A DNA stretch of 64,000 nt from Pyropia yezoensis (lineage: Eukaryota > Rhodophyta > Bangiophyceae > Bangiales > Bangiaceae): the NCBI GenBank assembly GCA_009829735.1, contig CM020618.1:36990894-37054893 (forward strand), given 5' to 3'. Positions 1-27,700 of the stretch are shown one piece after another (the first letter of the stretch is position 1; every line of letters begins with the position of its first letter). The translations under genes were made by a program, and so were the position numbers. Below the pieces are notes generated by a model. That model was not told the origin of the DNA and searched no databases. It saw only the letters and a list, made by a program, of their open reading frames with translations.

Positions 1-2499
1 TTCCCCCTTCCGTAGTCGAAGGGGTACGACCGATATTAAGAAAGCATGACGTCATGTGGACAGGCGGAGCCCTGGGTACCATTGGGGCAACCCAACATCG
101 TATTGACCTGGTACCAGGCGCACGCCCCGCCCGGTCACAACCGCATCGAGCGGGACCTATGCAACGAGAGATCGTTGATGGAGAAGTGAAAAGGATGAGT
201 GAAACGAAGGTGATGCGACCTTCGATGTCGGAGTGGGGTGCCCCAGTCGTTATCGTACCGAAGAAGGATCAAACTCCTCGGTTCTGCATCGATTATCGAC
301 GCCTCAACTTGGTTACCAAGAAGGACTCCTACCCTTTACCAAGGATGGATGAATGCATCGACTCCCTGGGGGAAGCTACGGTGTTTACCACCATCGACTG
401 CAATGCCGAATACTGGCAGATCCCGGTGGCGGACCAGGATATCCCCAAGACGGCGTTCGTCTGTCACAGTGGAGTGTACGAGTTCCTAAGGATGCCCTTC
501 GGGTTGTCCAACGCCCCCGCTACATTCCAGCGGGCTATCGACATTATACTGTCGGGGGTGAAGTGGCGTAACTGCCTAGTGTACCTCGATGACGTCATCG
601 TCTTCTCGCGTAACATGGATGACCATGTGCAACACGTTGACGAGGTACTCACCCTCTTGAGGAACGCCGGGGTAACCCTGCGTCTGAAGAAGTGCGCCTT
701 CTTCCAACAGACGGTCGAATATCTGGGCCACCAGATAACCCCTGGTAAACTAGGGGTACTCGAAGCCAATACCCGGGCACTCCGGGATGCCCGGTTCCCT
801 AACACCCAGACGCAGCTCAAGAGCTTCCTGGGAATGTGCAATGTATACCGACGGTTCGTCAAGGACTTCGCTCGGATAGCTAAACCGTTAGCGGTTCTCA
901 CGAGCAGTACCTTGCCCAAGGTACTCCAACCCCCTTCGCCTAGCGAAGAGGAGGCATTTGAGTCGCTGAAGCGAGCCCTACTGTCCCCACCCGTCCTTGC
1001 GTTACCGCATAGACGGGGGACCTTCGTCATCGATGTCGATGCATGTGATACACAAGTGGGGTGCACCCTGTTGCAGGGAGAGACGTTGATCGGTACCGAT
1101 AACGTTATCCCGGACCTACGTCCGGTAGGATACTTCAGCCGGACACTCAACCCGGCTGAGCGTAACTATAGTGCCACCGAGCGTGAATGCCTCGGAGTTA
1201 TATGGGCAGTGCAACTGCTCCGTCCATACCTGGAGGGCTCCAGGTTTATCGTGAGGTCCGACCACGAACCCCTACGATGGCTCCTCAACCTTGGTGACAA
1301 GGATTCCGATAGCCATGGGAGGCTAGCCCGATGGAGGCTGAAGGTGGCCGAGCACGACTACCGTACCGTGTATAAGGCTGGGTCAACCCACCATCTCGGA
1401 GACGCATTGTCTCGACTCGACACCCCGGGCGGGGATACCCGCCCGGTGGACGAGGACATCCCGGTGGTACCGGTCTGCATGGTGGGTAACGCTACCCAAG
1501 GTACGGTTGACCATACCATGGCACACTGAGCATGCCCACTAACCCTCGCGGACTTTCGCGAGGCACAAGCCAATGACGACGACTGTAGACGTCATCGCGC
1601 TAACCTCCTGGCCGGTACGGCCGGCATCTTCTCCGAGAACGAAGACGGACTCATATACCGGCGGGCACCCGCCGATGGACGACATCAAGTCGTGGTTCCC
1701 GTGTCCTTACGGCAAGCCGTCATGGAACGAGAACACGAGAACCCCACAGCCGAACACCAGGGGGGTTCACGTATGTTCGCAGCAATGCGAAGGTTCTTCT
1801 ACTGGCCAGCAATGGCCGTCGACGTGGTCGACCACGTAAGGGGATGCCACCCCTGTGCGCGTAACCGCATGAGTCTACATAGGCAGGCGTCTGCCATGAC
1901 GCTATTCCCACCCGATGGGCCCAACGAGCAAGTCGCTATCGACATACTCGGGCCACTTCCGGTAACGGAAGAAGGGAACAGGTACATCCTGGTCATGTCT
2001 GACCGCTTCACCAAGCTGTCACGAGCGGCAGCCATCCCGAATGATACGGCATACACGATTATGAACGCAGTGGTTGACCACTGGATCAGTGCATACGGAG
2101 TCATGAAGCAACTCCTCTCCGATAACGGAGCAAACCTTACGTCAGCATTCTGCACTAAGGTCCTGGGCATGTTCGGTATCGAACCACGTCGGGCATCCGA
2201 CTACCACCCGCAAACCAACGGGCTGGTGAAGCGGTTCAACCGCACCATCGTCAAAATGCTACAGTGCTACGTGGCCGAGCACACGAACACTTGGGACAGG
2301 CTCCTGTCCGTACTCATCCTGGCATACAATGCCAGGCCACATCGGAGCACTATCATCGCTCCGCTGGAGTGGGTCATGCCACTAGGCGTCGGTAACCTGA
2401 CGCTGCCACCAGGCAGGTGCACTCGGTATGATACACCGAAGGGCCGACCGGCCGAACGTATCCACCTAGCTTGGTTGGCCAAGCTATCGTGGATGATTC
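1..2499 (+). mobile_element. Ty3/gypsy (family F1) pol fragment
   Basis: Fossil fragment of a chromovirus-like Ty3/gypsy element. It holds the reverse transcriptase (YLDD active-site box), RNase H and integrase core, matching the pol at 12542-15586 almost base for base. It begins inside pol at the window edge and stops inside the integrase C-terminal part, where an F2 terminal repeat starts. It is broken, with a few breaks besides the two truncations. Near-identity to the other F1 copies points to a young insertion. No terminal repeat of its own lies in the window. Confidence 0.9.
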
Positions 2500-3258
2500 T
2501 GTGGTATAAAACTCGATCCTCTCAGACACGTGTCAATATCCCTCGGGGGAAAGGGACAGGTAACACAGAAAGGGGAACTACGAGAATGGTATGCCTGTTG
2601 CCTCACGTGCCTGCTCGCAGAGCAAACAGATACGCACGGTAGTGCACACGGGGAAGAGGAAAGCAAACGCGCAGTTGTCTTTTTCCTGAGGGCGCGGGCC
2701 AAGGGCGCCTCGCTGTCCCTCCTAACGTGCATCTGGGGGAGCCTCGGCACGTTGGCCAGGTAGCCCCCCCCCCCATAACCCCGAGTGGCCCCGACCCGAG
2801 TCTAACCTCGTCAGGTCGGGGGCCACTATCACTACTAATTCTATTCCCACTCACTAATCTCACACTCGAATTCTCTCAAATCAAGTCCCTCACAAGTATA
2901 CAAAAACCCATCAGAAATCCCTCTCTCACGTGTGGATAGCGTAGTCCACTGCATCCCAGTGCCGGGCACGGGCCACGGCCGCCAACCATCACCACACGGC
3001 GGGCGTCTTCTGGCACCTGGTGCCCTCTGGTTGTAGTCCCGGGTCGGCGCCAAGTCGGAGCCAGGGATGCTACATAGCTCCCTCCCTAGTCCGGCACGTC
3101 CTCGGGCCGAACCAGGTGCCACCGTGCACAGCCTCGAGCACGTCCACACCGGTGCCGAGGGCGAGCGTCTTCACCCTGGTCACGATCACCTGCTCCGGTT
3201 CTCTGCCCCCCTTCTCTCCTTCACCTTGGCCCTCTCGTTCCCCCGGAGTCTGGACGTC
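2500..3258. repeat. F2 terminal repeat and leader region (left copy)
   Basis: The outer end is shared with 25797 in the mirrored copy, at roughly 96-97% identity over the first 260 bp. A TATAAAA box lies at 2505-2511, reading towards the plus-strand ORF at 3259. A second terminal repeat for the same element is not present, so the inner LTR boundary cannot be set. Confidence 0.55.
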
Positions 3259-5376
3259 ATGTCCAGTTCCGATATCCAAGCTGGGCCCGTGGTTCCGGCG
3301 GCGAGTCTTGCGGAGGAGAACTCGGGTAGTCGCGCCCCTCTCCTGCCTCCGGTTCCTCGGGTGTCGATGTCGGCGCCGGTCGCCACGGCGGGGACGGATC
3401 AGGTTCCCCCGGCTTCTGTGATGCACCCGGTCGAGACCCCCCCGGTGGGTCTCCCGGAGATCCTTCTTGGGCAGGACCCTCTGGCGGCCCGGCGTTACTC
3501 CACGGTGGTCGGCAACGCCGGCGCGGCCCAGTGCCAGCAGGATTTCTTGGATCTCTGGCGCAAGGAACTCCAGCGCGGGGTCCTGACCGAGATGGATAAC
3601 GCTCGTCTTCACACGGCGGACCAGATGCGCCTGGCACAAGACCGCTCCCAGAGCTTCTCGGGTTCCTCTTGGGTTGCTCGTCTGGAGGATCTCCCCTTCG
3701 CGCTGGTGCTGGATCTACCCTTGACCGAGCGTCGCGTGTCTGCGTCCGTTCTCCGGTGGCCAGAGGAGGAAAGGTACGTCCACCGGGCGCTCAAGGTCTG
3801 GGACGAGGCGCTCAAGGGGTCGGGGAGCCTGAAATGCGATCCCCGTCCGAGCATGGTCGCTCTGGAGCCGCCCTTCCTGACCCGGAAGTATTCCAAGCTG
3901 TCGCCGGCGCGGGAGCAAGGCGAGCGACGCGGCCGCCAGCGTGACTTCCTCGTGAGCTGCAACCATCAGGAGTTCTGGAAGCTGGATAAGGCTAACCGGG
4001 CGGCGTACTACCCCAAGGTCATTCCGCAGCAGCAGGAAGTCGAGATCCCGGTCGGGTTTGCTCCTTCCAGCATCCCCTTCACCTGGTACTTCTTGGACGC
4101 CTTGACTCAGGCGTCGATCAAGGGCTTCTTCCACTCGATCCCGTACATGATGTACACGTCCGAGATGACAGTCTTGGCGGCCAACCACTGGCTTCACGAG
4201 GTCTTGGTGTCCAACAGGCTTTGGTTTCTCCCTGACCCCCTGATGGTCTGGATTGTCGACAAGTTGACCGTCGACTTCCTGTGCAGCCAGGACGAAGAGT
4301 ACAAGGGGCTCTTCCAGGCGATGATTGACTTCCGGCGTCTGGTGCCGGTGCATGACCGGAAATTCTTGAACGCGGTTGCCGAGCAGAACCGCCCGCGTCG
4401 GGATGGCTTCGGTTGGGCGCAGGTGGTCTACCAGTCTTCTCCGGCCAAGGTGCAGCTGGCGACGCCGCTTCCGGCGTGGCCGCAGCTAGGTAGCTTTCCT
4501 GCCCCGGCCGCCCTTGATCTTCTGCCAGTTGGGCCGCCGGTGCAGGAGTCGGGATGGGCCGCGGCGGTCGGTCAGGCGTCTGCGGCGGCTCCGCTTCCTC
4601 CTGTTGCACCTGTCGCCCCGGTGGCCTCGCCTGAACCGTCGCCGGCGCGTTCACGCCCTGTTCCGGCTGTGCCGGTACTTCAAGCTCCTCCGGCACCGCG
4701 CCTGTCTGCAGCGAGTCTGGGGGTGACCGTGCGGTCGCCTACCACTCCAGCCGCTCCGCCTCGGACGCCTTCTTCCAACGCCGGTGGCGCTGTGCCTCCG
4801 CTGGAGTTGGGTACTCCGGTTTCGGGGCCCGTTGTGGACCGTCCGGTGGTGTCATCCTCGGGGCGGTTCGAGATTCCGGCGCCGACTCTGCGCCTTACCC
4901 GCTTCCGGGTGCCTGACTGGTACCTGATCCAAGGTGGTCCGACATGCGACCAGTACGACGTCGGTATGATTGAAGACCAGCTGGGTCGTTTTCCGGTGCA
5001 GGTTGAAGGCGTTGGGTCCTCCCTGGTGCTGGGTACTTACGCCAGCGTCTTGAACAACGTGGTCGACCGGGTGTTTGCTTGCGCGGACAGCGGCCAGATG
5101 TCGAACAGCCCGGTGGTTGGCGAACTTCTGGCGACCTTGACGCGGCATGGCTTGGCCCAGCAGTGGTCAGAAACCTTCACTGGCTTCCAGGGGCGCCGAC
5201 GGGCATATCTGGATGAGCGGGAGCGCCCGGCAACTACCGGTACTACTCCGATGGCGTCATACCGGGATGCACCGCGTCCACCGCACTACGTCATCCCGTC
5301 ATCCTCCGGTTCCCGTCGTGCCGCGGAGGCAGCGCTGGAGGACACTCCCGCGGCTCAGCGTCCGCGCCGGGAGTAG
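3259..5376 (+). CDS. F2 extra ORF, antisense and convergent to pol; unrecognised
   Basis: An open frame of 705 codons from the ATG at 3259 (MSSSDIQ...). The mirrored F2 copy keeps the same start context (MSSSEIL...). I do not recognise a domain. The N-terminal 60 residues are Ala/Pro/Ser-rich. The middle (about residues 90-400) looks globular, rich in Trp and charged residues. Residues about 410-560 are a Pro/Ala linker, and a compact C-terminal part follows (about 540-650). No zinc knuckle, protease, RT or membrane segment is visible. It ends 146 bp from the convergent pol 3' end at 5522. The position fits the additional ORFs known in some plant Ty3/gypsy lineages between pol and the 3' LTR. 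It could be a structural (gag-like) protein; that is only a guess. The frame looks whole. Confidence 0.6.
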   Translation: MSSSDIQAGPVVPAASLAEENSGSRAPLLPPVPRVSMSAPVATAGTDQVPPASVMHPVETPPVGLPEILLGQDPLAARRYSTVVGNAGAAQCQQDFLDLWRKELQRGVLTEMDNARLHTADQMRLAQDRSQSFSGSSWVARLEDLPFALVLDLPLTERRVSASVLRWPEEERYVHRALKVWDEALKGSGSLKCDPRPSMVALEPPFLTRKYSKLSPAREQGERRGRQRDFLVSCNHQEFWKLDKANRAAYYPKVIPQQQEVEIPVGFAPSSIPFTWYFLDALTQASIKGFFHSIPYMMYTSEMTVLAANHWLHEVLVSNRLWFLPDPLMVWIVDKLTVDFLCSQDEEYKGLFQAMIDFRRLVPVHDRKFLNAVAEQNRPRRDGFGWAQVVYQSSPAKVQLATPLPAWPQLGSFPAPAALDLLPVGPPVQESGWAAAVGQASAAAPLPPVAPVAPVASPEPSPARSRPVPAVPVLQAPPAPRLSAASLGVTVRSPTTPAAPPRTPSSNAGGAVPPLELGTPVSGPVVDRPVVSSSGRFEIPAPTLRLTRFRVPDWYLIQGGPTCDQYDVGMIEDQLGRFPVQVEGVGSSLVLGTYASVLNNVVDRVFACADSGQMSNSPVVGELLATLTRHGLAQQWSETFTGFQGRRRAYLDERERPATTGTTPMASYRDAPRPPHYVIPSSSGSRRAAEAALEDTPAAQRPRRE

Positions 5377-5521
5377 TAGTTAGAGGCAAGGAGGGTGAGG
5401 GTCTTGGGAGAAGCGAGGAGGGAAGAGGCGGAGGGAAGGGTTGCTCGAGCGGTTGCTTGCTTTTCTTGATAGTTCCATGCTTGTATTGCGTGTTCTCCTT
5501 GATATGCCCGTTCCCTTCTTC

Positions 5522-8500
5522 TCAATCCTCTTGTTCCGCATCCGTTGCGGATGAACTCGGCTCGTCCCGACGGTCTTGGTTGGCCCCATCCTCTTGGTCC
5601 TCCTCCGAGTCCGACTCCAGAATCTTGCCGGCTCTGGCCACTGGAGTGCCCTCTATCCCGTTCCATCGCGTGTAGGCACAGACATCCGCGATGGGTAGCC
5701 GGCTTGAGGGTTCCCAGGTATCATCTGCCGGGTTAAAACCGAACCAGCGTACTCGCAGGTACAGGCGTCCGTCTCTCCAGGCATGGTCCACAAACTTGAC
5801 GTAGACATATTCCCGACCTTCTTCTTGGGATAGCCAGGGTACTGCGGCCCGCTTGCGCCGGGTCAAGTCCCGTTGGCTTGGCGGTGGAGCACGGGTGACA
5901 TGGTCGCTGCTCATGCGGTACGGGGAGCCATCCATGTCTAGAAGAAAGGTCCAACCGTCCGTACTCAGGATCTCATAAGGTCCATCCGTCTTCGAGTCCA
6001 GCTTCCCCCGGGTCTTGCTATGGTTGTCCACAAAAACCCAGTCGCCACCACCCAGTTCCTTGTTCTTTTCCCGAACGCCCTTGTCATAGCCTCGCCTGTA
6101 TCGCTCCTGGGTCTTCGAGATTGACTCCTTGACTCTTGGGAGCAGGAGCTTATGTTGTTCCAGGAACTCATCCTTTGCCTTGGGACCTGACTTCAGTGCA
6201 GGCTGGAGACCGTCTGGTATTGTTTCCAGGGAGAAGTTGGTCAGCCGCCTTGGGGTGACAAAGTCGAGTGGAGCGACCCCCGTTGTCCGGTGAACTCGGG
6301 AGTTGTAGGCTAGCGTGAGGACAGCCAGGAGCTCGTCCCAGTCTTCTTGGTGCTCCTCCACGTAGTGCCGTAGCATGTCTACTAGGGTCCGGTAGAATCG
6401 TTCCACCTGGCCGTTCGTTTGAGGGTGGTACGTCGTAGTGTACAAGTTCTTGACGCCCATTAGGTCACAGACTCCTTGGAAGAACAGGGATGCAAACTGG
6501 GGACCGTTGTCGGTCAAGACGGAGTCTGGAGGGCCGTAGGCAGCTATCCAGTACTCGCAGAAGGCTGACGTGACATCCAGAGCCGTGATGGTCCTCAGCG
6601 GGATTGCTCGAGTAAACTTGGAGAACCGGTCACATATGATGAGCAGGTATATGTTGCCACTGGATGTTTCAGGTAGGGGCCCCAGGATGTCCATGCTTAA
6701 GCTTGCAAAGGGCTCCGCCGCAGGGAATAGGCGTCGCTTGGAAGTCTTCTTCCTCTGGGACAACCGGTTCCTTGCACACGAAACACAAGCCTCCAGGTAC
6801 TTCTGGACGTCACTGGCCATGGTTTCCCAGTAATAGTGTCGTCTCATGGAACCATACATCCGATTGATACCAGGATGTCCGGCCTTGGGAGACTAGTGCT
6901 CCAGGCGTAGGATGTCAGCTCGTAGGCCCCGGGGTACGTAGACTTGAGTGGCCCCATCGAAGGGTGACACCCGTACTAGGAGTCCGTCCGTAGACTCGGA
7001 GACACGACTGTTCCGGTTCAGGTCCATTTGGTGGCGAAGCTCCAAGCATTGAGGATCCGTCAGTTGTGCCTCCAGCATCCGGTGAATGGTCACCGGTTGA
7101 TGAGCTTCAGGTGTCTCATACAGGGGGGCGTGCCAGCCACGTCCGACATTCGGGAGGATGAAGCAAGGTATTTCCTCCGGGATAGGACCGGTATCGGCTG
7201 CAGGAGTCTCCAGCCGGGACATGGTGTCGGCGCAGTGGTGCTTCCTCCCTGCTCTGGTGCACACCTTGTACTTGAACTCCGAAAGGCGTAGGCGCCACCG
7301 GGCTACCCTTCCTTGACTGCTGTCCATACATAGCAGCCACCTTAGGCTGGCGTAATCCGTCCGGATGAGGAACTCTTGTCCTTCAAGATATGGCCGTAAC
7401 AGGAAGCAAGCCCAGACGACCGCCAAGCACTCGCGCTCCGTCGTGGAATAGTTCTTCTCGGCTGGAGTCAAGACGCGACTGTAGTAGCCTATCGGGAGAA
7501 AGTGCCCATCAGGTTGCTGCTGGAGTAGTGAGCACCCCACCTGGACGCCACAGGCATCCGTCTCCAGAACAAACTGGCCCTCCCGCTTGGGTAACGCCAG
7601 TACTGGAGTGGTGGTCAGGCGCTTCTTGAGCTCTTCGAAGGCCGCGGTCTGCTTCTCGTCGAACACCGGGAGTTGTGCGGGAAGCTTCTTGCTGGTCAGC
7701 TTGGTCAGTGGCCGGGCAATCAGAGCATAGTCCCGTACGAACCGGCGATAGACGTTGCACATACCCAGGAAGCTCTTGAGTTCCGTCTGGGTTTTGGGTT
7801 GCCGTGCATGCCGGAGGGCCTTGATGTTCTTCTCATTGACTCGGAGCTCCCCCGGACTCAGCACGTGCCCCAGGTAATCCACCTCAGTCTCAAACAGGTG
7901 GCACTTCTCGGCCTTCAGGGTAACTCCAGCCTTGGACAGGAGGGCCAGGACCTCCCGAAGGTGCTCCAGGTGTTCCGCTGGGGTCTTGGAGAAAACGATA
8001 ATGTCATCCAGGTAGACCAAACATGTTCTCCACCTTAGCCCGGACAGGATGATGTCGATGGCTCTTTGGAAGGTCGCCGGAGCATTGGTGAGACCATAAG
8101 AAAGACGCTTGCACCGGAATAGTCCCAGGTGGCACGTGAAGGTGGTCTTGTCCTTGTCCTCGTCAGCCAGAGGGATCTGCCAGTAACCGGCATTACAATC
8201 CAGCGTCGAGAAGAGGGTGGCATCACCAAGAAAGTCGATACAATCATCCATCCGGGGTATCGGGTATACGTCCTTGACTGTCATCTCGTTCAGGCGCCGG
8301 TAGTCAACGCAGAAACGGAAGTGACCGCCGGTTTTCGGGACGACTACCACCGGGAAAGCCCACTCGCCATCAGACGGCTCGATAACATCCATCTTGAGCA
8401 TCTTGTTAACCTGCTTCTCAATCTCATCCCGGCGATGAGGTCCGGCCCGATATGGTTGCATGTGCACTGGCTTAGCTTCCGGCTTGAGTTGAATCCGGTG

Positions 8501-8770
8501 TAGAGTGGCGTCCATCTTGCCCAGCTCTCCCGACCACAGGTGCCGATATTCCTGGAGAAGCTTCTCCAGTGCCTCCTTCAAGTCGGGAGGGACATTTTCT
8601 TGCTTGACCTTCGGCATCCCGGGTGGTGCTTGTTCGGGTTTCGGAGTAGCGCTGCCAGCCTGCTGTAGCACAATAGGAATCCGTCGCACGTCCACTCTCA
8701 GGGAACACTCACCAAGGGGGATCGGCACCACCGTCACCGGGAGGCCAAGGTTGCTGTCCTTGGAGCGCAA
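5522..8770 (-). pseudogene. F2 pol region: RT, RNase H, integrase, chromodomain
   Basis: Reading leftward: reverse transcriptase with YLDD box, RNase H, an integrase zinc-binding segment ending CVSCARN, and an integrase core with TDNGPQF and the later YHPQTNGQVERF box. At the C-terminus is a chromodomain-like segment (YVKFVDHAW ... RVRWFGF ... TWEP), which places F2 among chromovirus-like Ty3/gypsy elements. No protease or gag is found upstream. The region is broken in at least one place but is otherwise well preserved, so it is not ancient. Confidence 0.88.
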
Positions 8771-8930
8771 GCCACGGGACCAAGATGGGAGCCCAAATGG
8801 GAGGGGTTTGTTGTTCTACCTTGGCCGGCGGTGGATTCGCCGCCGGCCCCCTCGTTATAAACCCTCGGAGACACTACTAACTACCCTCCACCCCAAGATG
8901 AAAGTCCCTCTGGTCATACGTAACTTATAG

Positions 8931-9613
8931 ATACCGTGACCAGTACGAACTATCAAATTGAAAGTTAAGGGTTAGAAGTAGCCCCCCTGATATTAGGGTC
9001 ACAATACGGACAACCATATTGCTACATATCCCCCCCTTAGATTCGACCCGTCCTCGGGTCGAGTTGCATTCGGGGTACCGAATGTAAGTGGGTCGCGTGA
9101 CCGTTTACCCGTCGGGTGGGGCTTTGCGCCCCGTCGCGACAGACACCCCTTTTCGAGGTTGTCTCAGGGGGGTGCCCCCCTTTGCGTGGTACACACACAC
9201 GATCCGTTTTCCGGACCGTTAAATTCCCGATGCGGGTTGCTGTTCACGCCCCCCCTTTCCGAGGGGTGGTGCAAGCGGATCCGCCACCAGGTGCCTGGTG
9301 GTAGGGGGGCCCCTCTCGTGTGGACGATTGAGTGGGGGGCGGGGGCTGCCCGCGTTGCGTGGGGGCGGTTGGGGGTGACCCCCCTTACTTACCCCGTGTG
9401 TGGGTGTGGCCCCGTCCCGCCCAGGTGCCTGGGTGGAGCGCGGTCGTAGCCCCGTGGGGCGCGGGTCGACCCGCGTGCCTGCGGCGCTTCTCGTGGCCGT
9501 TTGTGGTCATAAGCGCGGGTGTCCGCGCTTCCCTGGCTCGTCCCGGTTATCCCACCGTACCGGGTTGTAGCCGTCGACGGCTTGTGGGCGCGGGGGACTC
9601 CGCACCCGTTATC
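8931..9613. other. F1 terminal/leader sequence before the extra ORF (left copy)
   Basis: Non-coding GC-rich sequence between the F2 junction and the extra ORF, repeated in inverse at about 22538-23225. It should contain the F1 3' LTR if the element has one, but with no second copy inside the same element its edges cannot be drawn. The boundary with F2 near 8930 lacks any obvious target duplication. Confidence 0.4.
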
Positions 9614-12061
9614 ATGTCCTATCCCCAGGTGCTTGAAGAGGAGGAAGACCTCCTGATCGGGGAGGAGATGGAGGACGACGCGCCTGTCGGTCCCGACGCC
9701 GCGCGTTACGGGGTGAGCTCGTCTGACGACGACGGGCCTGCGGTGTCCGTCCGTCTGTCGGCCGGAGGACTGTCGTCCGTGTGCAGCGGCACGACGGTGC
9801 CGTCGGCCGGAGGTCAACCCGGTGGTCAACCGCGCGTGGCGGCTTCTACCCCCTCTCTGCCGGCTGCCCGGATGGAGCCTGGTGCCGGTGCCGGCTCACC
9901 GCAGGTACCTCAAGATGGTGCGCCCTGCGGCGGAGGTGGCGACCCACAGCGGACTCCGGCTAGTCAAGGTGGTCCGGGGGTCCGGGCGGTGACTCCTCGA
10001 GGCGGTCCCGACGTTGACGCGGGTGGTGGTGGCGGTGCGACACCCGGTGCGGTGGGTCAAGACGGTGCGGGTGTCCGCACGGCCGGGGCTCCGGCTCCGG
10101 AGGCTGTCCAAGTGCCTTCCACTTCCGAGGCGGGGGCTACGCCGACGGGTGGTGCCGGCGCCGGTACCATACCTGCGGTGCCGCGGGTGTCGAGCGGTCA
10201 AGACGCTTCTTCTCCCATGGCGGTTGACACCGGGAGTTACTCCGGGCGGGCGCCCGCCCTTCTTCTTCCTCCTCGGCCTCGTCCATCTCCGACGTCGGCC
10301 CCTCTGCCGGTGGTGCGTCCCCCGGCGCCCCCGATTCTTCCTGGTCCTGCCCGGGTTGCCCCGTTGGGTGGCGGCGTCGCCGTGGCGGCGGGTCAACCCG
10401 CCATGTCGGTGTCCGACTTGGTGGCTCGGGTTCGAGGCCTCACGGTGCAAGAGTCGATGGAGTCCGATGGGCGTATGCGGGTGGACTTCCACCTGGTGCA
10501 TCCCCGTGGAGAATCCTCCCGGCGCGTCAAGGTGGACCCGTGCTGGGAGCGGGAGTTGGTGCGGCTGGTCAACCAGCCGAACGCGGTCCGGGTGGAACAC
10601 CATTGGATCCTGAGTCAGCCGGACGACCGGCATGCGCAGCTCTGGCGCACCCGGGTGGGACGGGGTGAGGTCTACCTCGACCCCAACTTCGGGGTCTGCG
10701 ACTTGATTGCCCCCGCGTTGCCGCGGGAGATTGACTACCCGGCTAGTGCTCGGGCGATTGCGGCGGCGGCGGAGCCGGTTGCGTTTGGGGAGACGGTGAG
10801 CCGTACCGGTCGGTATCCCGACTTTGACTACTACCCGGGAAAACCCCCGTATCTGTCGTTGACGGCTCCCTACCCGCCCATGGCGGGGTTGAAGTCGGCG
10901 TCGAGTTGGCGACGTAACCATGGTGTCATGGCCGATGCGTTCCGCACGGATATAACGTGTGCGTTGCAGACCGGCAACGGTCGTGCTCCGGTATACACTC
11001 CCGTGCGCCCGCCGCTATGGCAGGAGGGGTGGGAACCCGCCCCTGCTTTCCGGTTTGACACCGGCTCCTGCCTTCGCTACTTCGGGAGTGTGTTGGCCTC
11101 GCGACCGGTCCACCCGTTGCAGGGTACCTTCACCCTTGAGGTTACCCTCGGGCAGGCTTCATCCTTCTTGCTGTCCGTCCGCCGGCAGGGTCGTCTGTTT
11201 CATCTTCCGACGGGTGTCCGTCGGCACATCGCGCAGTTGGGCGTGGATCTGATAGCCGCCAAGACCGGGTTGGCCCGGGAGTTCGAAGCCCTGCTGGCTG
11301 TTCACGATGCCGTGAACTGGGCTGGGGTGTTGGAACTTCCCCCGTACCGGGACCCGCAGGCTGGGGCTTCCCCCTTGCCTCGTCACTCGTTGCGTGTCCG
11401 GCGTACTCAGCCGGGTGAGCCCAGTTGCCATGGGTGGGCATCCACCGAGGCTGTTGCTGACCTGGGTATTCCCATGGTTATCCATGACCCTCTTCAGGTC
11501 CTTGCTCCGTGGTTCGGTAACCCGATGCCGGCGGCGGTAGGCCGTCGTCCCCGAGAGTGGGGCTCTGTGGGTGGGGAGCGTGAGGTGTCCCGTCGTCGGG
11601 CGGAGTACCGCCGTGGTTACGGTGGAGCCCCTTCGGTAGGGTCCTACCGGGCCTCGTATCAGGTGCCACCGGCTCCGGTGGTAGCCGTGTCGGCTCCTGT
11701 GGCTCCTCTGGCTGCGCCAGTGTCACCTCCCGCCCCTGTCCTACATGACGGGGGTCCCCGTCTCTGGTATGAAGGCGTTGACGCCCTTGTTACCCGCGCA
11801 ATGCGTGGGGGTCTCTCTGTTAGCTGGGGGGATATCCCCCCAGGTGCTGCGCTGGTTGGGTCAGCGCGTTGCTTCGGTGGCGTGCTGGACCGCCTCCAGA
11901 AAGCTCTGGAGGACATGGAGGCTGGCCGCAGCACCCTCGTCCAGCTATGCACCGAGGTAACTCGGGTGGTCGACCGTCGTGACGTTGCCGACCGGTGGAG
12001 CACGGAGGTCTACGCGCTTACGCGTGAGTGGCCTCCCTCGGGCAGTGGGTCTACCCACTGA
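9614..12061 (+). CDS. F1 extra ORF, antisense and convergent to pol; unrecognised
   Basis: An open frame of 815 codons from the ATG at 9614 (MSYPQVLEEEED...). The frame stays open upstream to 9332, but this ATG is followed by the acidic, protein-like start. Residues about 1-260 are acidic then Gly/Pro/Ala-rich and look disordered. Residues about 270-630 look globular, with many Trp, Arg and Tyr. The C-terminal 100 residues form a small charged domain. It shares layout, not clear sequence, with the F2 ORF at 3259-5376. No catalytic or zinc motif is recognised. The mirrored copy differs at about ten residues. The frame looks whole. A structural or nucleic-acid-binding role is speculation. Confidence 0.6.
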   Translation: MSYPQVLEEEEDLLIGEEMEDDAPVGPDAARYGVSSSDDDGPAVSVRLSAGGLSSVCSGTTVPSAGGQPGGQPRVAASTPSLPAARMEPGAGAGSPQVPQDGAPCGGGGDPQRTPASQGGPGVRAVTPRGGPDVDAGGGGGATPGAVGQDGAGVRTAGAPAPEAVQVPSTSEAGATPTGGAGAGTIPAVPRVSSGQDASSPMAVDTGSYSGRAPALLLPPRPRPSPTSAPLPVVRPPAPPILPGPARVAPLGGGVAVAAGQPAMSVSDLVARVRGLTVQESMESDGRMRVDFHLVHPRGESSRRVKVDPCWERELVRLVNQPNAVRVEHHWILSQPDDRHAQLWRTRVGRGEVYLDPNFGVCDLIAPALPREIDYPASARAIAAAAEPVAFGETVSRTGRYPDFDYYPGKPPYLSLTAPYPPMAGLKSASSWRRNHGVMADAFRTDITCALQTGNGRAPVYTPVRPPLWQEGWEPAPAFRFDTGSCLRYFGSVLASRPVHPLQGTFTLEVTLGQASSFLLSVRRQGRLFHLPTGVRRHIAQLGVDLIAAKTGLAREFEALLAVHDAVNWAGVLELPPYRDPQAGASPLPRHSLRVRRTQPGEPSCHGWASTEAVADLGIPMVIHDPLQVLAPWFGNPMPAAVGRRPREWGSVGGEREVSRRRAEYRRGYGGAPSVGSYRASYQVPPAPVVAVSAPVAPLAAPVSPPAPVLHDGGPRLWYEGVDALVTRAMRGGLSVSWGDIPPGAALVGSARCFGGVLDRLQKALEDMEAGRSTLVQLCTEVTRVVDRRDVADRWSTEVYALTREWPPSGSGSTH

Positions 12062-12541
12062 GGAGTGCTATTGTTTGTGCGGGAGAGGGCCCCGGCAACC
12101 CTTATGGTAGCCGGGTAGTAGTGAGTATAAACTCATCCCCCGCTGGGGGCATTGCTTGCCTCTGTTTGCTGCCCTGGGGAGTACCCCTTCTGGCTCAGTG
12201 GTGCCTTGCCTCCCGTCCAACTTCTTCCGGTTGGTTCATGCTTGGGGAGGTTATCCTCCCTCACTTTGTGTCTTGGCTTTGGGAGGTCATCCTCCCGTGT
12301 AAGCCTCCTAGTTACTTCGATATTATCGGAGTTAGCCTTTACCTTTAAGTTACCTTATTAAGGTTCAGGTTTTTACTTAGTTACCTAAGCTTAGCTCTAC
12401 TTAGTTACCTAAGCTTGGTTCGACTTAGAAACCTAAGTCTGATTTGACTTAGAAACCTAAGTCTGCTTTAACCATGTCACACCCTACTTAGTAGGTATAA
12501 GCCTCACCCCCCAACAGCCGAAGTCGGTGTCGGTTGGGTTG
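12062..12541. repeat. Convergent intergenic region with 4 x 24-bp hairpin repeat (F1 left)
   Basis: Between the 3' ends of the extra ORF and pol. Four exact-period 24-bp units begin at 12375, 12399, 12423 and 12447. Each contains a small stem CTTAG...CTAAG around a loop of four bases. The first two units carry GTTAC-type and the last two AAAC-type loops. The position suggests a bidirectional transcript-end or polypurine/polypyrimidine-associated structure, which is inference. The same block lies at about 19681-19776 in the mirrored copy. Confidence 0.7.
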
Positions 12542-15500
12542 TTACAGTAGGCGTCGTCGCCTCATGTAAGGCATGAGTAGTTGGCGGGGTATATTTGCCG
12601 CCTGTTCCCAGGTGGGTGAGTCGTATCCGACCCACATAACCTTGACGTACCAGGGTCCTGGTAGGTCCGGGTCGGTGTGTCCGACCACGCTCTCTACTTG
12701 GTATGGAATCCCATCCGGTCCCACCGGGTCATCTGACCGGTGGGTTGTAAGAGCTTCATGTAGCAACCCAGCCGGTACCGGCTGAGGCTGTTCCGGCATC
12801 GGAGCAGGTGTGACGTCATTCATGCTGATGCGTTGAATCTCCGTATCGGAGTGTAAGATAACAGAGTGGTTATCTCTGTGGAGGATCTGGTACGGTCCCT
12901 TGACCGGTTGCATAAGCTTGTTCCCTCGGAACTTCTGGTGTCTGATATAGACCCAGTCACCTGTTACCAGGGTTGCGTTGCGCACCCGTAGTCGGGCGTC
13001 GAAGTTCTTCTTGTATCGAAGTTGTGTTCTGTCAAGGGCACCCTTGAGCTTAGGAATCATCCACGATAGCTTGGCCAACCAAGCTAGGTGGATGCGTTCG
13101 GCGGGTCGGCCCTTCGGTGTATCATACCGAGTGCACCTGCCTGGCGGCAGCGTCAGGTTACCGACGCCTAGTGGCATGACCCATTCCAGTGGGGCGATGT
13201 TGGTACTCCGATGTGGCCTGGACTTGTATGCCAGGGTGAGTACGGACAGAAGCCTGTCCCAAGTGTTCGTGTGCTCTGCCACGTAGCACTGTAGCATCTT
13301 AACGATGGTGCGGTTGAACCGCTCCACCTGCCCGTTGGACTGCGGGTGGTAGTCGGATGCCCGACGTGGTTCGATACCGAACACGCCCAGGACTTTAGTG
13401 CAGAATGCCGACGTAAGGTTTGCTCCGTTATCGGAGAGGAGTTGCTTCATGACTCCGTATGCACTGATCCAGTGGTCAACCACTGCGTTCATAATCGTGT
13501 ATGCCGTATCATTCGGGATGGCTGCCGCTCGTGACAGCTTGGTGAATCGGTCAGACATGACCAGGATGTACCTGTTCCCTTCTTCCGTTACCGGAAGTGG
13601 CCCGAGTATGTCGATAGCGACTTGCTCGTTGGGCCCATCGGGTGGGAATAGCTTCATGGCAGACGCCTGCCTATGTAGACTCATGCGGTTACGCGCACAG
13701 GGGTGGCATCCCCTTACGTGGTCGACCACGTCGACGGCCATTGCTGGCCAGTAGAAGAACCTTCGCATTGCTGCGAACATACGTGAACCCCCCGGGTGTC
13801 CGGCTGTAGGGTTCTCATGTTCTCGTTCCATGACGGCTTGCCGTAAGGACACGGGAACCACGACTTGATGTCGTCCATCGGCGGGTGCCCGCCGGTATAT
13901 GAGTCCGTCTTCGTTCTCGGAGAAGATGCCGGCCGTACCGGCCAGGAGGTTAGCACGATGACGTCTACAGTCATCGTCGTTGGCCTGTGCCTCGCGGAAG
14001 TCCGCGAGGGTCAATGGGCACGCAAGGTGTGCCATGGTATGGTCAGCCATACCCTGGGTAGCATTACCCACCATGCACACCGGTACCACCGGGATGTCCT
14101 CGTCCACCGGGCGGGTATCCCCGCTCGGGGTGTCGAGTCGAGACAACGCGTCTCCGAGGTGGTGGGTTGACCCAGCCTTATACACCGTGCGGTAGTCGTG
14201 CTCGGCCATCTTCAGCCTCCATCGGGCTAGCCTCCCATGGCTATCGGAATCCTTGTCACCAAGGTTGAGGAGCCATCGTAGGGGTTCGTGGTCGGACCTC
14301 ACGATGAACCTGGAGCCCTCCAGGTATGGACGGAGCAGTTGCACTGCCCATATAACTCCGAGGCATTCACGCTCGGTGGCACTATAGTTCCGCTCAGCCG
14401 GGTTGAGTGTCCGGCTGAAGTACCCTACCGGACGTAGGTCCGGGATAACGTTGTCGGTACCTATCAACGTCTCTCCCTGTAACAGGGTGCATCCCACTTG
14501 TGTATCACACGCATCGACATCGATGACGAAGGTACCCCGTCTATGCGGTAACGCAAGGACGGGTGGGGACAGTAGGGCTCGCTTCAGCGACTCGAATGCC
14601 TCCTCTTCGCTAGGCGAAGGGGGTTGGAGTACCTTGGGTAAGGTACTGCTCGTAAGAACCGTTAACGGTTTAGCTATCCGAGCGAAGTCCTTGACGAACC
14701 GTCGGTATACATTGCACATTCCCAGGAAGCTCTTGAGCTGCGTCTGGGTGTTAGGGAACCGGGCATCCCGGAGTGCCCGGGTATTGGCTTCGAGTACCCC
14801 TAGTTTACCAGGGGTTATCTGGTGGCCCAGATATTCGACCGTCTGTTGGAAGAAGGCGCACTTCTTCAGACGCAGGGTTACCCCGGCGTTCCTCAAGAGG
14901 GTGAGTACCTCGTCAACATGTTGTACATGGTCATCCATGTTACGCGAGAAGACGATGACGTCATCGAGGTACACTAGGCAGTTACGCCACTTCACCCCCG
15001 ACAGTATGATGTCGATAGCCCGCTGGAATGTAGCGGGGGCGTTGGACAATCCGAAGGGCATCCTTAGGAACTCGTACACTCCACTGTGACAGACGAATGC
15101 CGTCTTGGGGATATCCTCGTCCGCCACCGGGATCTGCCAGTATCCGGCGTTGCAGTCGATGGTGGTAAACACCGTAGCCTCCCCCAGGGAGTCGATGCAT
15201 TCATCCATCCTTGGTAAAGGGTATGAGTCCTTCTTGGTAACCAAGTTGAGGCGTCGATAATCGATGCAAAACCGAGGGGTTTGATCCTTCTTCGGCACAA
15301 TAACGACTGGGGCACCCCATTCCGACATCGAAGGTCGGATCACCTTAGCTTCACTCATCCTCTTCACTTCTCCATCAACGATCTCTCGTTGCATAGGTCC
15401 CGCTCGGTGCGGTTGTGACCGGGCGGGTCGTGCGCCTGGTACCAGGTCTATACGATGTTGGGTTGCCCCAATGGTCCCCAAGGCCCCGCCTGTCCACATA

Positions 15501-16950
15501 ACGTCATGCTTTCTTAGCATCCGTCGTACCCCTTCGGCTACCGAAGGGTGAAGGTGGTCGAGGTCAGCCTCGGCCAGTGCCTTCAAGGCCCTTGGTCCTT
15601 TGGCGGCAGGTCCGCCGGCGCCGCCGATGGGTTAGGCTTCCCGTCATCGGGTTGCTGTCGCTCGGTGGTCTCGGCGACCGCCAGTACTTCAAGTGGTTCC
15701 ACTTGACCTTCCTTATCAGGGGTAAGGATATCTCCTTCGTAGAGTTCGGCAATCCCGAGGATAGTTCCCTTCGGGAGGGTGACTGCCTTACGGCGGTAGT
15801 TCGCCATCACTAGGAGGGACGACCCTCCTGCTGGGAGGTCTATGAGACCGTTGGCCATGGTCAACCCATGGCGCTTGTACGTCCGTAGGTTGGACTGGAC
15901 TCTGCAGATGCCTGCGAGGTCGCAGTTAACCGGGAGGACTGTCTCTGACAACGGCTCAAAGCGAGTCCGCTTGGCCAACCGAAGTGTCTTCGGCTCGACG
16001 CTTGCGTACACCTCAGCCACGTTAACGTGGCTTCCTTGTAGCGTCAGGTCCCTGACGATAGCCGTGTGTCCTCGCTTCGTCCCGTCGGCTTCTTGAAGCT
16101 CGACGGTCCTCCGGCCTGGCCGGATTGCATCAACGTGAACGTTGATGAAGGTGCACCCCAGTATGCAGGGCACCGATAGCGTTTCACATACCAGGAAGTC
16201 AACTTCCGTGGTGAGATCCCCGATGGTAACCTGCAGCGACATCGCTGCGGTCGTACGAATGAGTCGACCATTCGCGTCCTTGATGGTGGGTCCCCGAGTC
16301 ACTCTGACTCGTGGAAGCCACTTGTCCGGGAGGGTATCCTTCCGGATAAGGTTGGGTCCAGCCCCGGTGTCCAGTACAGGGTAGTATGATCGTGTCGACT
16401 GGGGGTCAACCCCCAGGGTGGCTGATACCTTGAAGTTCTCCAAGGTAAACAACACATGTCCTACACCGATATCCGGTGTAGCTCGGGCATCCTGAACAGG
16501 GCCCTTGTCTGGTTCAACGTGACGGGGCTTCCCGTCCTCTCCTCCCAACCTTGGAGGTTGGCCATCAATCCCCTGACGCCGTGTCGTCGGGGCCGGAAGG
16601 TGTACCCGGGGGTTGATGCGGCGTCGGCTCAACCGCGCTCTCCGTGGGGCTTTCCCCGCGGTACTCCGGGGTGGCTTGCTTGGGTAACCCCAGCGCCCCC
16701 CGGTCATCCTTCCTCTTACTCGTTTCCCGCCCTTGGTAGGGTGCTGTCCGCCGGGACATCCGGCTGAGGAGGTGCCCCCTCGACGGCCAGTACTCCACCT
16801 GGAGCTGGCTGCCTACCCGGTGCGGGTCCGGGTGCTCGGCGGGATATCCCCCAGTAGATGCCTTGCGTTGCGCCGCTGCCCGCCGAGACTCCTCGGGGAT
16901 GAGTGGGCAGGAAGACACCCAGTGCTGGGGATCCCCACACAACATACACC
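12542..16950 (-). CDS. F1 pol: zinc knuckle, protease, RT, RNase H, integrase, chromodomain
   Basis: Reading leftward: a CCHC zinc knuckle (CMLCGDPQHWVSSC, near 16945-16904) from the gag end; an aspartic protease with VLDTGAGPNLI (near 16380); RT with CLVYLDDVIVFS (near 14955); RNase H; an integrase zinc-binding segment (CHPCARN) and core with LSDNGANL and SDYHPQSNGQVERF. The C-terminal chromodomain-like end is VKVMWVGYDSPTWE. The gag-protease and RT-integrase parts lie in different, slightly overlapping frames, as Ty3/gypsy elements often use recoding between such parts. The region looks largely whole. Confidence 0.88.
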
Positions 16951-17285
16951 CGGACGTGCCGGTCCCCCTTGAGTTCGCATCGGGGTAGCCCCGTAGCTAC
17001 GGTTGCCTCCCTCGGGCGCCCGAGTGCCTGCTCCCTGGTAGGCCTTGGGTCCTTGGGTCAACCGGAACATGGATTCCCCCAACCGGTTGGGTCGGCCCGC
17101 AATCTGCGGAGGTGCCTCCGTGCGCACCGCCCATGTTGGCAAGGGTTGGTGAGGGTTACCCGTCACCGGGGGAGTACCCCGTAGTCCGCACATACGGGAC
17201 GCGCCGTCCCGTGCCTTCGTTGACCTGGAACTGGGTTCCAGCCGGGGCGATGTACGCTACCGTACCATGTTCATCAATCACCGGC

Positions 17286-17785
17286 NNNNNNNNNNNNNNN
17301 NNNNNNNNNNNNNNNNNNNNNNNNNNNNNNNNNNNNNNNNNNNNNNNNNNNNNNNNNNNNNNNNNNNNNNNNNNNNNNNNNNNNNNNNNNNNNNNNNNNN
17401 NNNNNNNNNNNNNNNNNNNNNNNNNNNNNNNNNNNNNNNNNNNNNNNNNNNNNNNNNNNNNNNNNNNNNNNNNNNNNNNNNNNNNNNNNNNNNNNNNNNN
17501 NNNNNNNNNNNNNNNNNNNNNNNNNNNNNNNNNNNNNNNNNNNNNNNNNNNNNNNNNNNNNNNNNNNNNNNNNNNNNNNNNNNNNNNNNNNNNNNNNNNN
17601 NNNNNNNNNNNNNNNNNNNNNNNNNNNNNNNNNNNNNNNNNNNNNNNNNNNNNNNNNNNNNNNNNNNNNNNNNNNNNNNNNNNNNNNNNNNNNNNNNNNN
17701 NNNNNNNNNNNNNNNNNNNNNNNNNNNNNNNNNNNNNNNNNNNNNNNNNNNNNNNNNNNNNNNNNNNNNNNNNNNNNNNNNNNNN
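17286..17785. other. Assembly gap of exactly 500 N
   Basis: Exactly 500 undetermined bases, a conventional placeholder for unknown size. Sequence on both sides is F1 retroelement in opposite orientation, so the gap sits at the axis of a large inverted repeat. The real distance, and even adjacency of the two contigs, is unproven. Confidence 0.98.
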
Positions 17786-19609
17786 GTTATATGGGCAGTG
17801 CAACTGCTCCGTCCATACCTGGAGGGCTCCAGGTTCATCGTGAGGTCCCGGAACATCTATCCGAAACCCCTACGATGGCTCCTCAACCTTGGTGACAAGG
17901 ATTCCGATAGCCATGGGAGGCTAGCCCGATGGAGGCTGAAGATGGCCGAGCACGACTACCGCACGGTGTATAAGGCTGGGTCAACCCACCACCTCGGAGA
18001 CGCGTTGTCTCGACTCGACACCCCGAGCGGGGATACCCGCCCGGTGGACGAGGACATCCCGGTGGTACCGGTGTGCATGGTGGGTAATGCTACCCAGGGT
18101 ATGGCTGACCATACCATGGCACACCTTGCGTGCCCATTGACCCTCGCGGACTTCCGCGAGGCACAGGCCAACGACGATGACTGTAGACGTCATCGTGCTA
18201 ACCTCCTGGCCGGTACGGCCGGCATCTTCTCCGAGAACGAAGACGGACTCATATACCGGCGGGCACCCGCCGATGGACGACATCAAGTCGTGGTTCCCGT
18301 GTCCTTACGGCAAGCCGTCATGGAACGAGAACATGAGAACCCTACAGCCGGACACCCGGGGGGTTCACGTATGTTCGCAGCAATGCGAAGGTTCTTCTAC
18401 TGGCCAGCAATGGCCGTCGACGTGGTCGACCACGTAAGGGGATGCCACCCCTGTGCGCGTAACCGCATGAGTCTACATAGGCAGGCGTCTGCCATGAAGC
18501 TATTCCCACCCGATGGGCCCAACGAGCAAGTCGCTATCGACATACTCGGGCCACTTCCGGTAACGGAAGAAGGGAACAGGTACATCCTGGTCATGTCTGA
18601 CCGATTCACCAAGCTGTCACGAGCGGCAGCCATCCCGAATGATACGGCATACACGATTATGAACGCAGTGGTTGACCACTGGATCAGTGCATACGGAGTC
18701 ATGAAGCAACTCCTCTCCGATAACGGAGCAAACCTTACGTCGGCATTCTGCACTAAGGTCCTGGGCATGTTCGGTATCGAACCACGTCGGGCATCCGACT
18801 ACCACCCGCAGTCCAACGGGCAGGTGGAGCGGTTCAACCGCACCATCGTCAAGATGCTACAGTGCTACGTGGCAGAGCACACGAACACTTGGGACAGGCT
18901 TCTGTCCGTACTCACCCTGGCATACAATGCCAGGCCACATCGGAGTACCAACATCGCCCCACTGGAATGGGTCATGCCACTAGGCGTCGGTAACCTGACG
19001 CTGCCGCCAGGCAGGTGCACTCGGTATGATACACCGAAGGGCCGACCCGCCGAACGCATCCACCTAGCTTGGTTGGCCAAGCTATCGTGGATGATTCCTA
19101 AGCTCAAGGGTGCCCTTGACAGAACACAACTTCGATACAAGAAGAACTTCGACGCCCGACTACGGGTGCGCAACGCAACCCTGGTAACAGGTGACTGGGT
19201 CTATATCAGACACCAGAAGTTCCGAGGGAACAAGCTTATGCAACCGGTCAAGGGACCGTACCAGATCCTCCACAGAGATAACCACTCTGTTATCTTACAC
19301 TCCGATACGGAGATTCAACGCATCAGCATGAATGACGTCACACCTGCTCCGATGCCGGAACAGCCTCAGCCGGTACCGGCTGGGTTGCTACATGAAGCTC
19401 TTACAACCCACCGGTCAGATGACCCGGTGGGACCGGATGGGATTCCATACCAAGTAGAGAGCGTGGTCGGACACACCGACCCGGACCTACCAGGACCCTG
19501 GTACGTCAAGGTTATGTGGGTCGGATACGACTCACCCACCTGGGAACAGGCGGCAAATATACCCCGCCAACTACTCATGCCTTACATGAGGCGACGACGC
19601 CTACTGTAA
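17786..19609 (+). pseudogene. F1 pol 3' half (RNase H end, integrase, chromodomain), right copy
   Basis: Begins at the gap inside RNase H and continues through the integrase and chromodomain-like C-terminus to 19609. It is near identical to 12542-14356. It is incomplete only because the gap removes its 5' half, and shows a small local difference close to the gap edge. Confidence 0.85.
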
Positions 19610-20089
19610 CAACCCAACCGACTCCGACTTCGGCTGTTGGGGGGTGAGGCTTATACCTACTAAGTAGGGTGTGACATGGTTAAAGCAGACTTAGGTTTCT
19701 AAGTCAAATCAGACTTAGGTTTCTAAGTCGAACCAAGCTTAGGTAACTAAGTAGAGCTAAGCTTAGGTAACTAAGTAAAAACCTGAACCTTAATAAGGTA
19801 ACTTAAAGGTAAAGGCTAACTCCGATAATATCGAAGTAACTAGGAGGCTTACACGGGAGGATGACCTCCCAAAGCCAAGACACAAAGTGAGGGAGGATAA
19901 CCTCCCCAAGCATGAACCAACCGGAAGAAGTTGGACGGGAGGCAAGGCACCACTGAGCCAGAAGGGGTACTCCCCAGGGCAGCAAACAGAGGCAAGCAAT
20001 GCCCCCAGCGGGGGATGAGTTTATACTCACTACTACCCGGCTACCATAAGGGTTGCCGGGGCCCTCTCCCGCACAAACAATAGCACTCC
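19610..20089. repeat. Convergent intergenic region with 4 x 24-bp hairpin repeat (F1 right)
   Basis: Inverse counterpart of 12062-12541. Hairpin units start near 19689, 19713, 19737 and 19761 with the same 24-bp period. Confidence 0.7.
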
Positions 20090-22537: not shown

Positions 22538-23225
22538 GATAACGGGTGCGGAGTCCCCCGCGCCCACAAGCCGTCGACGGCTACAACCCGGTACGGTGGG
22601 ATAACCGGGACGAGCCAGGGAAGCGCGGACACCCGCGCTTATGACCACAAACGGCCACGAGAAGCGCCGCAGGCACGCGGGTCGACCCGCGCCCCACGGG
22701 GCTACGACCGCGCTCCACCCAGGCACCTGGGCGGGACGGGGCCACACCCACACACGGGGTAAGTAAGGGGGGTCACCCCCAACCGCCCCCACGCAACGCG
22801 GGCAGCCCCCGCCCCCCACTCAATCGTCCACACGAGAGGGGCCCCCCTACCACCAGGCACCTGGTGGCGGATCCGCTTGCACCACCCCTCGGAAAGGGGG
22901 GGCGTGAACAGCAACCCGCATCGGGAATTTAACGGTCCGGAAAACGGATCGTGTGTGTACCACGCAACGGGGGGCACCCCCCTCAGACAACCTCGAAAAG
23001 GGGTGTCTGTCGCGACGGGGCGCAAAGCCCCACCCGACGGGTAAACGGTCACGCGACCCACTTACATTCGGTACCCCGAATGCAACTCGACCCGAGGACG
23101 GGCCGAATCTAAGGGGGGGATATGTAGCAATATGGTTGTCCGTATTGTGACCCTAATATCAGGGGGGCTACTTCTAACCCTTAACTTTCAATTTGATAGT
23201 TCGTACTGGTCACGGTATCTATAAG

Positions 23226-27482: not shown

Positions 27483-27700
27483 TGTGACCTTCTTGTGCGT
27501 CTTTCACTCTGTCACGGATGAGCGTGCAGCGGCGGCAATCTGCCGGCCGGTGAAGGGGTCCTCACCAGTGCACAGGCGAATGGGTGACTGTGGCCACCAA
27601 TGGGAACAGCAGACTCTGGAGCTGGAGGAAGGGCGAAAGAGGGGAACAAAGAGGAGGGTGCGCACATGCTCCCCTTTTACGTGTCCCTGTTGACGCTGCG

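Follow-up and report, generated by a model that had tools for sequence, protein, structure and literature searches.

Antisense ORFs convergent with pol in five Ty3/gypsy families of the red alga Pyropia yezoensis: probably one old accessory gene

Introduction

Why should two retrotransposon families of one genome both carry a long reading frame on the strand opposite to pol? The question is raised by a 64,000-nucleotide stretch of the Pyropia yezoensis genome (contig CM020618.1, positions 36,990,894 to 37,054,893; hereafter the window), in which the Ty3/gypsy families F1 and F2 each contain such an open reading frame (ORF). Antisense extra ORFs have been reported from flowering plants and from a fungus, and the sources leave their origin and function unresolved (PMC7264820, PMC11963269). 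Among the best-ranked open-access literature matches we found none that describes antisense ORFs in the LTR elements of red algae. Where the layout recurs in a red alga, the regulation of transposition by antisense genes can be studied in an independent lineage. LTR retrotransposons predominate among the repeats of P. yezoensis, the one statement on them in the accessible part of the genome paper (PMC7423979), and a shared regulator would consequently bear on genome growth.

We consider it likely that the ORFs are homologous versions of a single accessory gene, which lies antisense between pol and the 3′ LTR, was acquired once and encodes a regulator acting in trans.

Results

The relevant features of the window are the following.

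2496-3074, minus strand (the element sense): F2 3′ LTR, matching that of a full-length copy at 98%
3259 (ATG) to 5374-5376 (stop), plus strand: F2 antisense ORF, 705 aa; 63 genomic copies scored
4153-4356, plus strand: part of the conserved core of F2 (YTSEMTV...RLWFLP...), from sequence and profile alignments
5522-6859, minus strand: F2 pol, integrase and chromodomain-like end, from the frame and Pfam
6893-8663, minus strand: F2 pol, RT and RNase H, truncated by F1; the frame continues to 8770 in the F1 LTR
8664-9026, minus strand: F1 3′ LTR, matching that of a full-length copy at 97%
9614 (ATG) to 12059-12061 (stop), plus strand: 815-aa antisense ORF of F1, in a frame that is open from 9332 on
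11129-11308, plus strand: part of the conserved core of F1 (FTLEVTLGQ...RLFHLP...), from sequence and profile alignments
11840-12028, plus strand: C-terminal three-helix module of F1, from the model, of which no other part is confident (block pLDDT as high as 87); weakly similar to the C-terminus of F2
12542-15586, minus strand: F1 pol, RT, RNase H and integrase, from the frame and Pfam
15583-16707, minus strand: F1 pol, protease part, from the frame and Pfam
16716-17285, minus strand: F1 gag, 3′ part, truncated by the N gap 17286-17785
17786-19609, plus strand: pol of a second, inverted F1 copy, from the frame and self-comparison of the window
20090-22537, minus strand: antisense ORF of the second F1 copy; frame open to 22819
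23486-25794, minus strand: diverged F2 copy with LTR (25225-25794) and a partial antisense ORF containing two stops, from sequence comparison

The first-pass annotation had placed both ORFs antisense to, and convergent with, pol, between its 3′ end and the terminal repeat. Coordinates and strands are as described there, and each ORF lies between the end of pol and a 3′ LTR that was mapped from full-length copies. In the window copies the gap between pol and ORF measures 145 bp in F2 and 480 bp in F1, while 184 bp and 587 bp, respectively, separate the LTR from the annotated ATG; in both families the ORF fills the interval from the end of pol to the 3′ LTR. The extent of pol had to be corrected. 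For F2, drawn as 5522-8770, strand and convergence hold, but the element ends at 8663, where copy comparison shows it interrupted by the F1 3′ LTR, and the frame 6893-8770 begins in that LTR. F1 pol, drawn as 12542-16950, does lie on the minus strand but consists here of two overlapping frames, 12542-15586 and 15583-16707, where many other copies show a single frame of 1423 aa. The F2 antisense frame has a second in-frame ATG at 3067, within the final LTR bases, and both 3067 and 3259 are possible starts. P0005 begins with MADPEV and P0003 contains MSDPQV, both counterparts of the F1 start, MSYPQV.

The complete elements were reconstructed from genomic copies (107.5 Mb searched, in 11 contigs, three of them of 43.6, 34.3 and 29.4 Mb). 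F1 measures about 10.8 kb with LTRs of about 362 bp, and F2 about 9.7 kb with LTRs of about 575 bp; the F2 gag, protease and 5′ LTR that are missing in the window were found in copies elsewhere. Direct matches of LTR length were obtained for 7 of 10 F1 and 6 of 10 F2 locus pairs; two more F2 pairs match in an inverted layout, and the remaining pairs gave longer matches or none. The sense gag has 729 codons in F1 and 627 in the F2 copy L038, whose pol has 1319. Both gags contain a CCHC motif, the zinc-knuckle Pfam matches being below cut-off, and share 29% identity over 252 columns; the RT-RNase H part of pol is 51% identical between the families. The Pfam families RVT_1, RT_RNaseH, H2C2 and rve were found in both pols, and a Pfam protease family above cut-off in F1. 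With gag first, then protease, RT, RNase H and integrase, F1 and F2 are both Ty3/gypsy elements. One copy of each family showed the LTR ends TGTAGCA...CA, the primer binding site (PBS) TGGTGGAGCAGCAGGGGA and a purine-rich tract 5′ of the 3′ LTR. The families have this PBS in common (window 9026-9050; L019 1583-1600, L020 3640-3690, L037 and L038; one copy each), as well as a block CCCGAGGACG(G/T)GCCG directly before the purine tract (again one copy each), which sits on the side of the antisense ORF distant from pol.

Because F1 and F2 copies have an ordinary sense gag and pol, the antisense ORF is an extra gene; that it could be a displaced or missing gag was rejected on the same finding. Within the best-scoring subsets, at least 63 copies of the F2 ORF and at least 55 of the F1 ORF were scored. 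All 150 scored matches to the F2 core are stop-free inside the core, and these at least 150 near-identical copies in a 107-Mb genome are material for asking about regulation of transposition.

To look beyond F1 and F2, the best 150 integrases of an rve profile search were scored, and the 3′ side of two of these, picked by open-frame length, was taken. Both additional 3′ sides hold a long antisense ORF and define families F3 and F4.

L061 1285-3132, antisense: F3 antisense ORF, 615 aa, open frame
L062 1668-4199, antisense: F4 antisense ORF, at least 843 aa, frame open at the edge of the stretch

With two families beyond F1 and F2 sampled through the 3′ side of integrases, families lacking an antisense ORF may exist. 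The F3 query gave 72 matches that range in identity from 39% to 100%. For 48 of them one of the best 150 rve matches lies within 6 kb, and all 48 place the ORF downstream of rve on the opposite strand, at a median distance of 1288 bp. Such an rve is lacking near the remaining 24, and a few of the matches are fragments of a single locus. Six F3 relatives (51-52% identity) have a 549-aa stop-free frame whose match begins at F3 residues 69-71, which suggests that the N-terminal part is dispensable or that another start is used. The F4 core retrieved 61 matches, namely 6 close ones (87-100%) and 55 distant ones (24-41% identity, best E 3.7e-15), nine of which lie in a 941-aa frame. We refer to the 55 distant matches as F5, represented by the single core L064; the integrase end next to it (C3:128507-129535) is 51% identical to that of F4. 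Judged against matches to the F4 integrase end, the layout is convergent in 6/6 F4 cases and in 40 of the 55 F5 cases, with one ORF on the same strand at 5.2 kb and 14 without an integrase-end match within 6 kb, that is, in 40 of 41 testable F5 cases.

For F1, nine of ten 3′ loci hold at least half of the ORF, antisense in all nine; the exception is L024. All ten F2 loci are convergent; pol is directly next to the ORF in nine, and in L042 it starts 5.3 kb on, beyond an apparent second ORF core. LTRs were mapped in F1 and F2, and the place of the ORF in F3 to F5 is given relative to the integrase alone. The lineage trait suggested in the first-pass annotation is supported, and more widely than it was put forward, since the convergent layout recurs in five families with proteins linked as a remote superfamily (see below), and the idea that unrelated sequence was captured just once has failed.

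The pols of four families gave chromodomain (PF00385) scores that are all below the curated cut-off of 25.1 bits (F2 22.6, F1 11.5, F3 21.8, F4 20.8 bits). The C-terminal end of the F4 pol (1673 aa), which lies at L062 1-1512 on the plus strand, contains in addition, beyond the chromodomain-like part, a DNA adenine methyltransferase domain of the Dam type (PF05869, E 3.4e-7, above cut-off).

What kind of protein do the ORFs encode? No Pfam family was found above cut-off in any antisense protein scanned; isolated weak matches to DUF6214, CRIC_ras_sig and GST_C_2 vary between proteins and were taken as chance. PF04195 (TRP28 of the Retand elements) was not among the hmmscan matches, a search in which the HMMER filters lose most weak matches, and membership in TRP28 was rejected. 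The fold models of F1 and F2 have mean pLDDT values of 32 and 35; they show helices in the core and three C-terminal helices, of which only those of F1 are confident. With models this poor, no biochemical activity can be named. A PDB profile search with the F1 profile gave three matches (E 0.5-0.65), taken as chance. The middle of both proteins had been called Trp-rich, a description that is weak at 14 Trp in 815 residues (F1) and 14 in 705 (F2). No transmembrane segment was detected in six proteins, whose highest 19-residue hydropathy ranges from 1.10 to 1.41.

These data bear on an alternative in which the protein serves the particle cycle structurally or within the cell, as a capsid accessory, chaperone, movement or env-like protein, instead of regulating transcription or silencing. 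Long disordered parts around a conserved core would suit a scaffold, and the place before the 3′ LTR is that of env, as the accessible part of PMC7264820 describes it. Against this, the antisense orientation decouples the ORF from gag-pol expression, no Pfam family passes its cut-off, and with no 19-residue window above 1.41 there is no env-like membrane anchor. An env-like gene, with an ORF that is antisense and devoid of transmembrane segments in six proteins, was rejected, and we regard a structural role in general as unlikely.

The first-pass annotation had found the F1 and F2 proteins not obviously alike. Pairwise this stands, but profiles show that they are related. F3 matches F2 by BLASTP with E 1e-14 over 339 columns; its match to F1 keeps this register and covers 168 columns with E 0.002. 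Between a profile of F2, F3 and its relative F3b and the profile of F1, 243 columns align with E 5.1e-5 and a score of 47.65 (hhalign gives a probability of 67%), compared with 18.3 for the reversed control and a maximum of 25.55 in 100 column shuffles. Likewise, F4 and F5 together match the F2/F3 profile with E 2.2e-4 and score 39.57 (probability 45%; maximum of 100 shuffles 21.56). F4 alone scored 22.5 here, against up to 25.6 in the shuffles of other comparisons, and stood out only together with F5. Between F4/F5 and F1 the score is 20.3, a value reached by 6 of 100 shuffles and not significant alone. The profile links are built from few sequences, and the link from F1 to F4/F5 passes through F2/F3. 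By eye, the shared core reads approximately [YFV]xxE...[AV]..[FWL]L......L..L.

Pairwise tests with mild masking were less clear. Shuffles reaching the observed score numbered 8 and 5 per 1000 for F1-F2, 66 and 57 for F2 against the F1 subfamily F1b, and 325 and 326 for F2 against a Pyropia vietnamensis protein, an F1-type homologue with 48% identity that is known here from its protein sequence alone. Unrelated pol sequences scored 54-55 against F1b in the same test. Given these results, we did not accept pairwise evidence alone and built the case on profiles. Split into segments, F1-F2 gave 33 and 31 of 2000 shuffles for the middle and 88 and 56 for the C-terminus, and F1b-F2 gave 2 and 2 of 2000 for the C-terminus; the F1b middle and both P. 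vietnamensis segments were not significant against F2. Two proteins from other sources are 75% and 45% identical. The protein searches scored about 8000 best word-sharing candidates, and relatives may be missed.

From these comparisons the antisense proteins of F1 to F5 appear to form one remote superfamily. Could the families instead have captured different host genes independently? The weak pairwise similarity of F1 and F2, the non-significant comparison of F1 with F4/F5 and hhalign probabilities of 67% and 45% would fit such a history. Both profile links, F1 to F2/F3 and F2/F3 to F4/F5, nevertheless beat 100 of 100 shuffles, and the layout is the same in all five families; we consider this history very unlikely. 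Taken together, the layout in five families and the linked proteins most likely go back to a single ancestor.

Long open frames are weak proof on their own at a GC content of 61-67%; selection at the codon level does prove coding. The pooled pairwise dN/dS is 0.242 for F2 (8 loci, picked by ORF score and hence biased toward intact frames) and 0.319 for F1 (11 copies, nine from loci picked by protease score, which brings no ORF bias, and two from the window). In neither F1 nor F2 did any of 1000 trinucleotide-matched placements reach the observed synonymous count. The relative N/S of the antisense ORF is 0.35 in F2 and 0.46 in F1, in the same range as the sense genes (F2 pol 0.70, F2 gag 0.55, F1 gag 0.41). 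Internal stops occur in one of the 8 F2 loci and one of the 11 F1 copies; two of the latter are partial and two have 12-14 extra bases.

The constraint extends over larger distances. Subfamily F1b (L057-L059; a fourth copy, L060, was excluded for an internal stop) has 70% protein identity to F1, and dN/dS between them is 0.27-0.28 at dS 0.72-0.73. For one pair, F1 and L058, pN is lower than pS in 10 of 10 windows across F1 residues 194-795. Among themselves the three F1b copies have dN/dS of 0.66-1.76, consistent with decay after insertion and not constraint. Between F3 and F3b, dN/dS is 0.25 at dS 1.71. We conclude that in F1, F2 and F3 purifying selection acts on the protein encoded by the antisense frame. 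The comparison of synonymous and nonsynonymous rates that had been proposed for these ORFs thus shows that the copies as a set are not drifting neutrally (F2 0.24, F1 0.32, F1-F1b 0.27-0.28). The diverged F2 copy of the window, whose partial ORF has two stops, is 88% identical at the DNA level (86% within the ORF); when it is compared with three copies, one of them itself interrupted by a stop, dN/dS is 0.26-0.29.

Selection by codon, seen as a synonymous excess in the ORF frame, also argues against a function of the antisense transcript itself, through double-stranded RNA or transcriptional interference, with the frame incidental. The convergent layout would indeed yield overlapping transcripts, and non-coding antisense RNAs are known in micropia (accessible part of PMC7264820); as homologous protein cores are kept between families, we judge such a role very unlikely. 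The mirror frame, on the opposite strand with common third positions, shows a synonymous excess too (45 and 95, versus 51 and 111 in the ORF), and in the remaining four frames the pattern is reversed, as it should be where a reading is non-coding. That the frames are spurious, mirroring a sense-strand feature in GC-rich DNA where stops are rare, has next to no probability, since the mirror signal is the weaker one and the other four frames are reversed, the 341-aa sense-strand ORF at 9896-10921 lies in a frame with a relative N/S of 1.56 over the whole F1 ORF, and the pooled dN/dS, the placement test and the F1-F1b divergence, with 0.27-0.28 even at dS 0.72, reject a chance frame.

Discussion

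We return to the single accessory gene, in the best reading old, lineage-wide and, by analogy with known systems, probably regulatory. In our proposal, the ancestor of the five families would have gained the antisense gene once. The gene would be transcribed from a putative promoter of its own, inside the LTR or between the 3′ LTR and the start codon, so that a separate plus-strand transcript would carry the ORF. Its product, predicted to have disordered Pro/Ala/Gly-rich parts flanking a mostly helical core, may act in trans as an element regulator, for example of transcription, silencing or nuclear traffic, as suggested by Retand, Grande and HBZ. Kept off the gag-pol RNA, it could be made when that RNA is not; by the logic of this proposal its level could be adjusted independently and need not vanish when gag-pol is silenced. 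We know of no homology between the algal ORFs and HBZ/APH-2.

How does the layout compare with described cases? In the accessible parts of PMC7264820 and PMC11963269, Retand, a plant non-chromovirus Ty3/gypsy lineage, likewise has an antisense ORF between pol and the 3′ LTR, whose products are putatively DNA binding. It differs in carrying TRP28 (Transposase_28, PF04195), which had no match in the algal proteins scanned, in being a non-chromovirus, where the algal pols give weak chromodomain scores below cut-off, and in being placed in eudicots and Liliopsida only, whereas the ORFs here are red-algal. Grande gene23, rice RIRE2, PvRetro13 and Boty of Botrytis (aORF-3R) agree with the algal ORFs in position and orientation, and for gene23 a promoter of its own and a product in the nucleus are described (PMC7264820). 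Set beside these by their descriptions, the alga differs in that one protein superfamily runs through five families. The HTLV genes of the HBZ/APH-2 type are antisense accessory genes read from the 3′ LTR side, a similar layout (PMC11963269 and PMC7264820). The env-like ORFs of plant LTR retrotransposons occupy the same place between pol and the 3′ LTR, but they are sense and transmembrane, in contrast to the antisense algal ORFs without a transmembrane segment. The layout as such is already known. What appears to be new is the protein, the group of its hosts and the occurrence of a common core across five families.

A broader reading is that the Bangialean Ty3/gypsy elements as a group possess an additional ancestral antisense gene for an undescribed protein superfamily, a third core gene that is perhaps a feedback regulator or serves escape from silencing, and that predates the divergence of families whose pols share only about half of their residues (F1-F2, F4-F5). 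To this we assign an even chance.

A few minor observations concern the surroundings of the elements. A 500-base N gap (17286-17785) lies between two head-to-head F1 copies, 8664-14356 being the reverse complement of 17786-23485 at 99.4%, and this gap may be a scaffolding join. Window positions 1-2499 are a third F1 fragment (pol), which adjoins the F2 LTR and has 96% identity to the reverse complement of 13054-15552. The F1 insertion at L033/L034 has a tandem array on both flanks (self-matches of about 78-84% at shifts of about 70 bases). Finally, the minus-strand frame 27562-29154 has a middle part that we take to resemble a Bax-inhibitor-1/TMBIM membrane protein.
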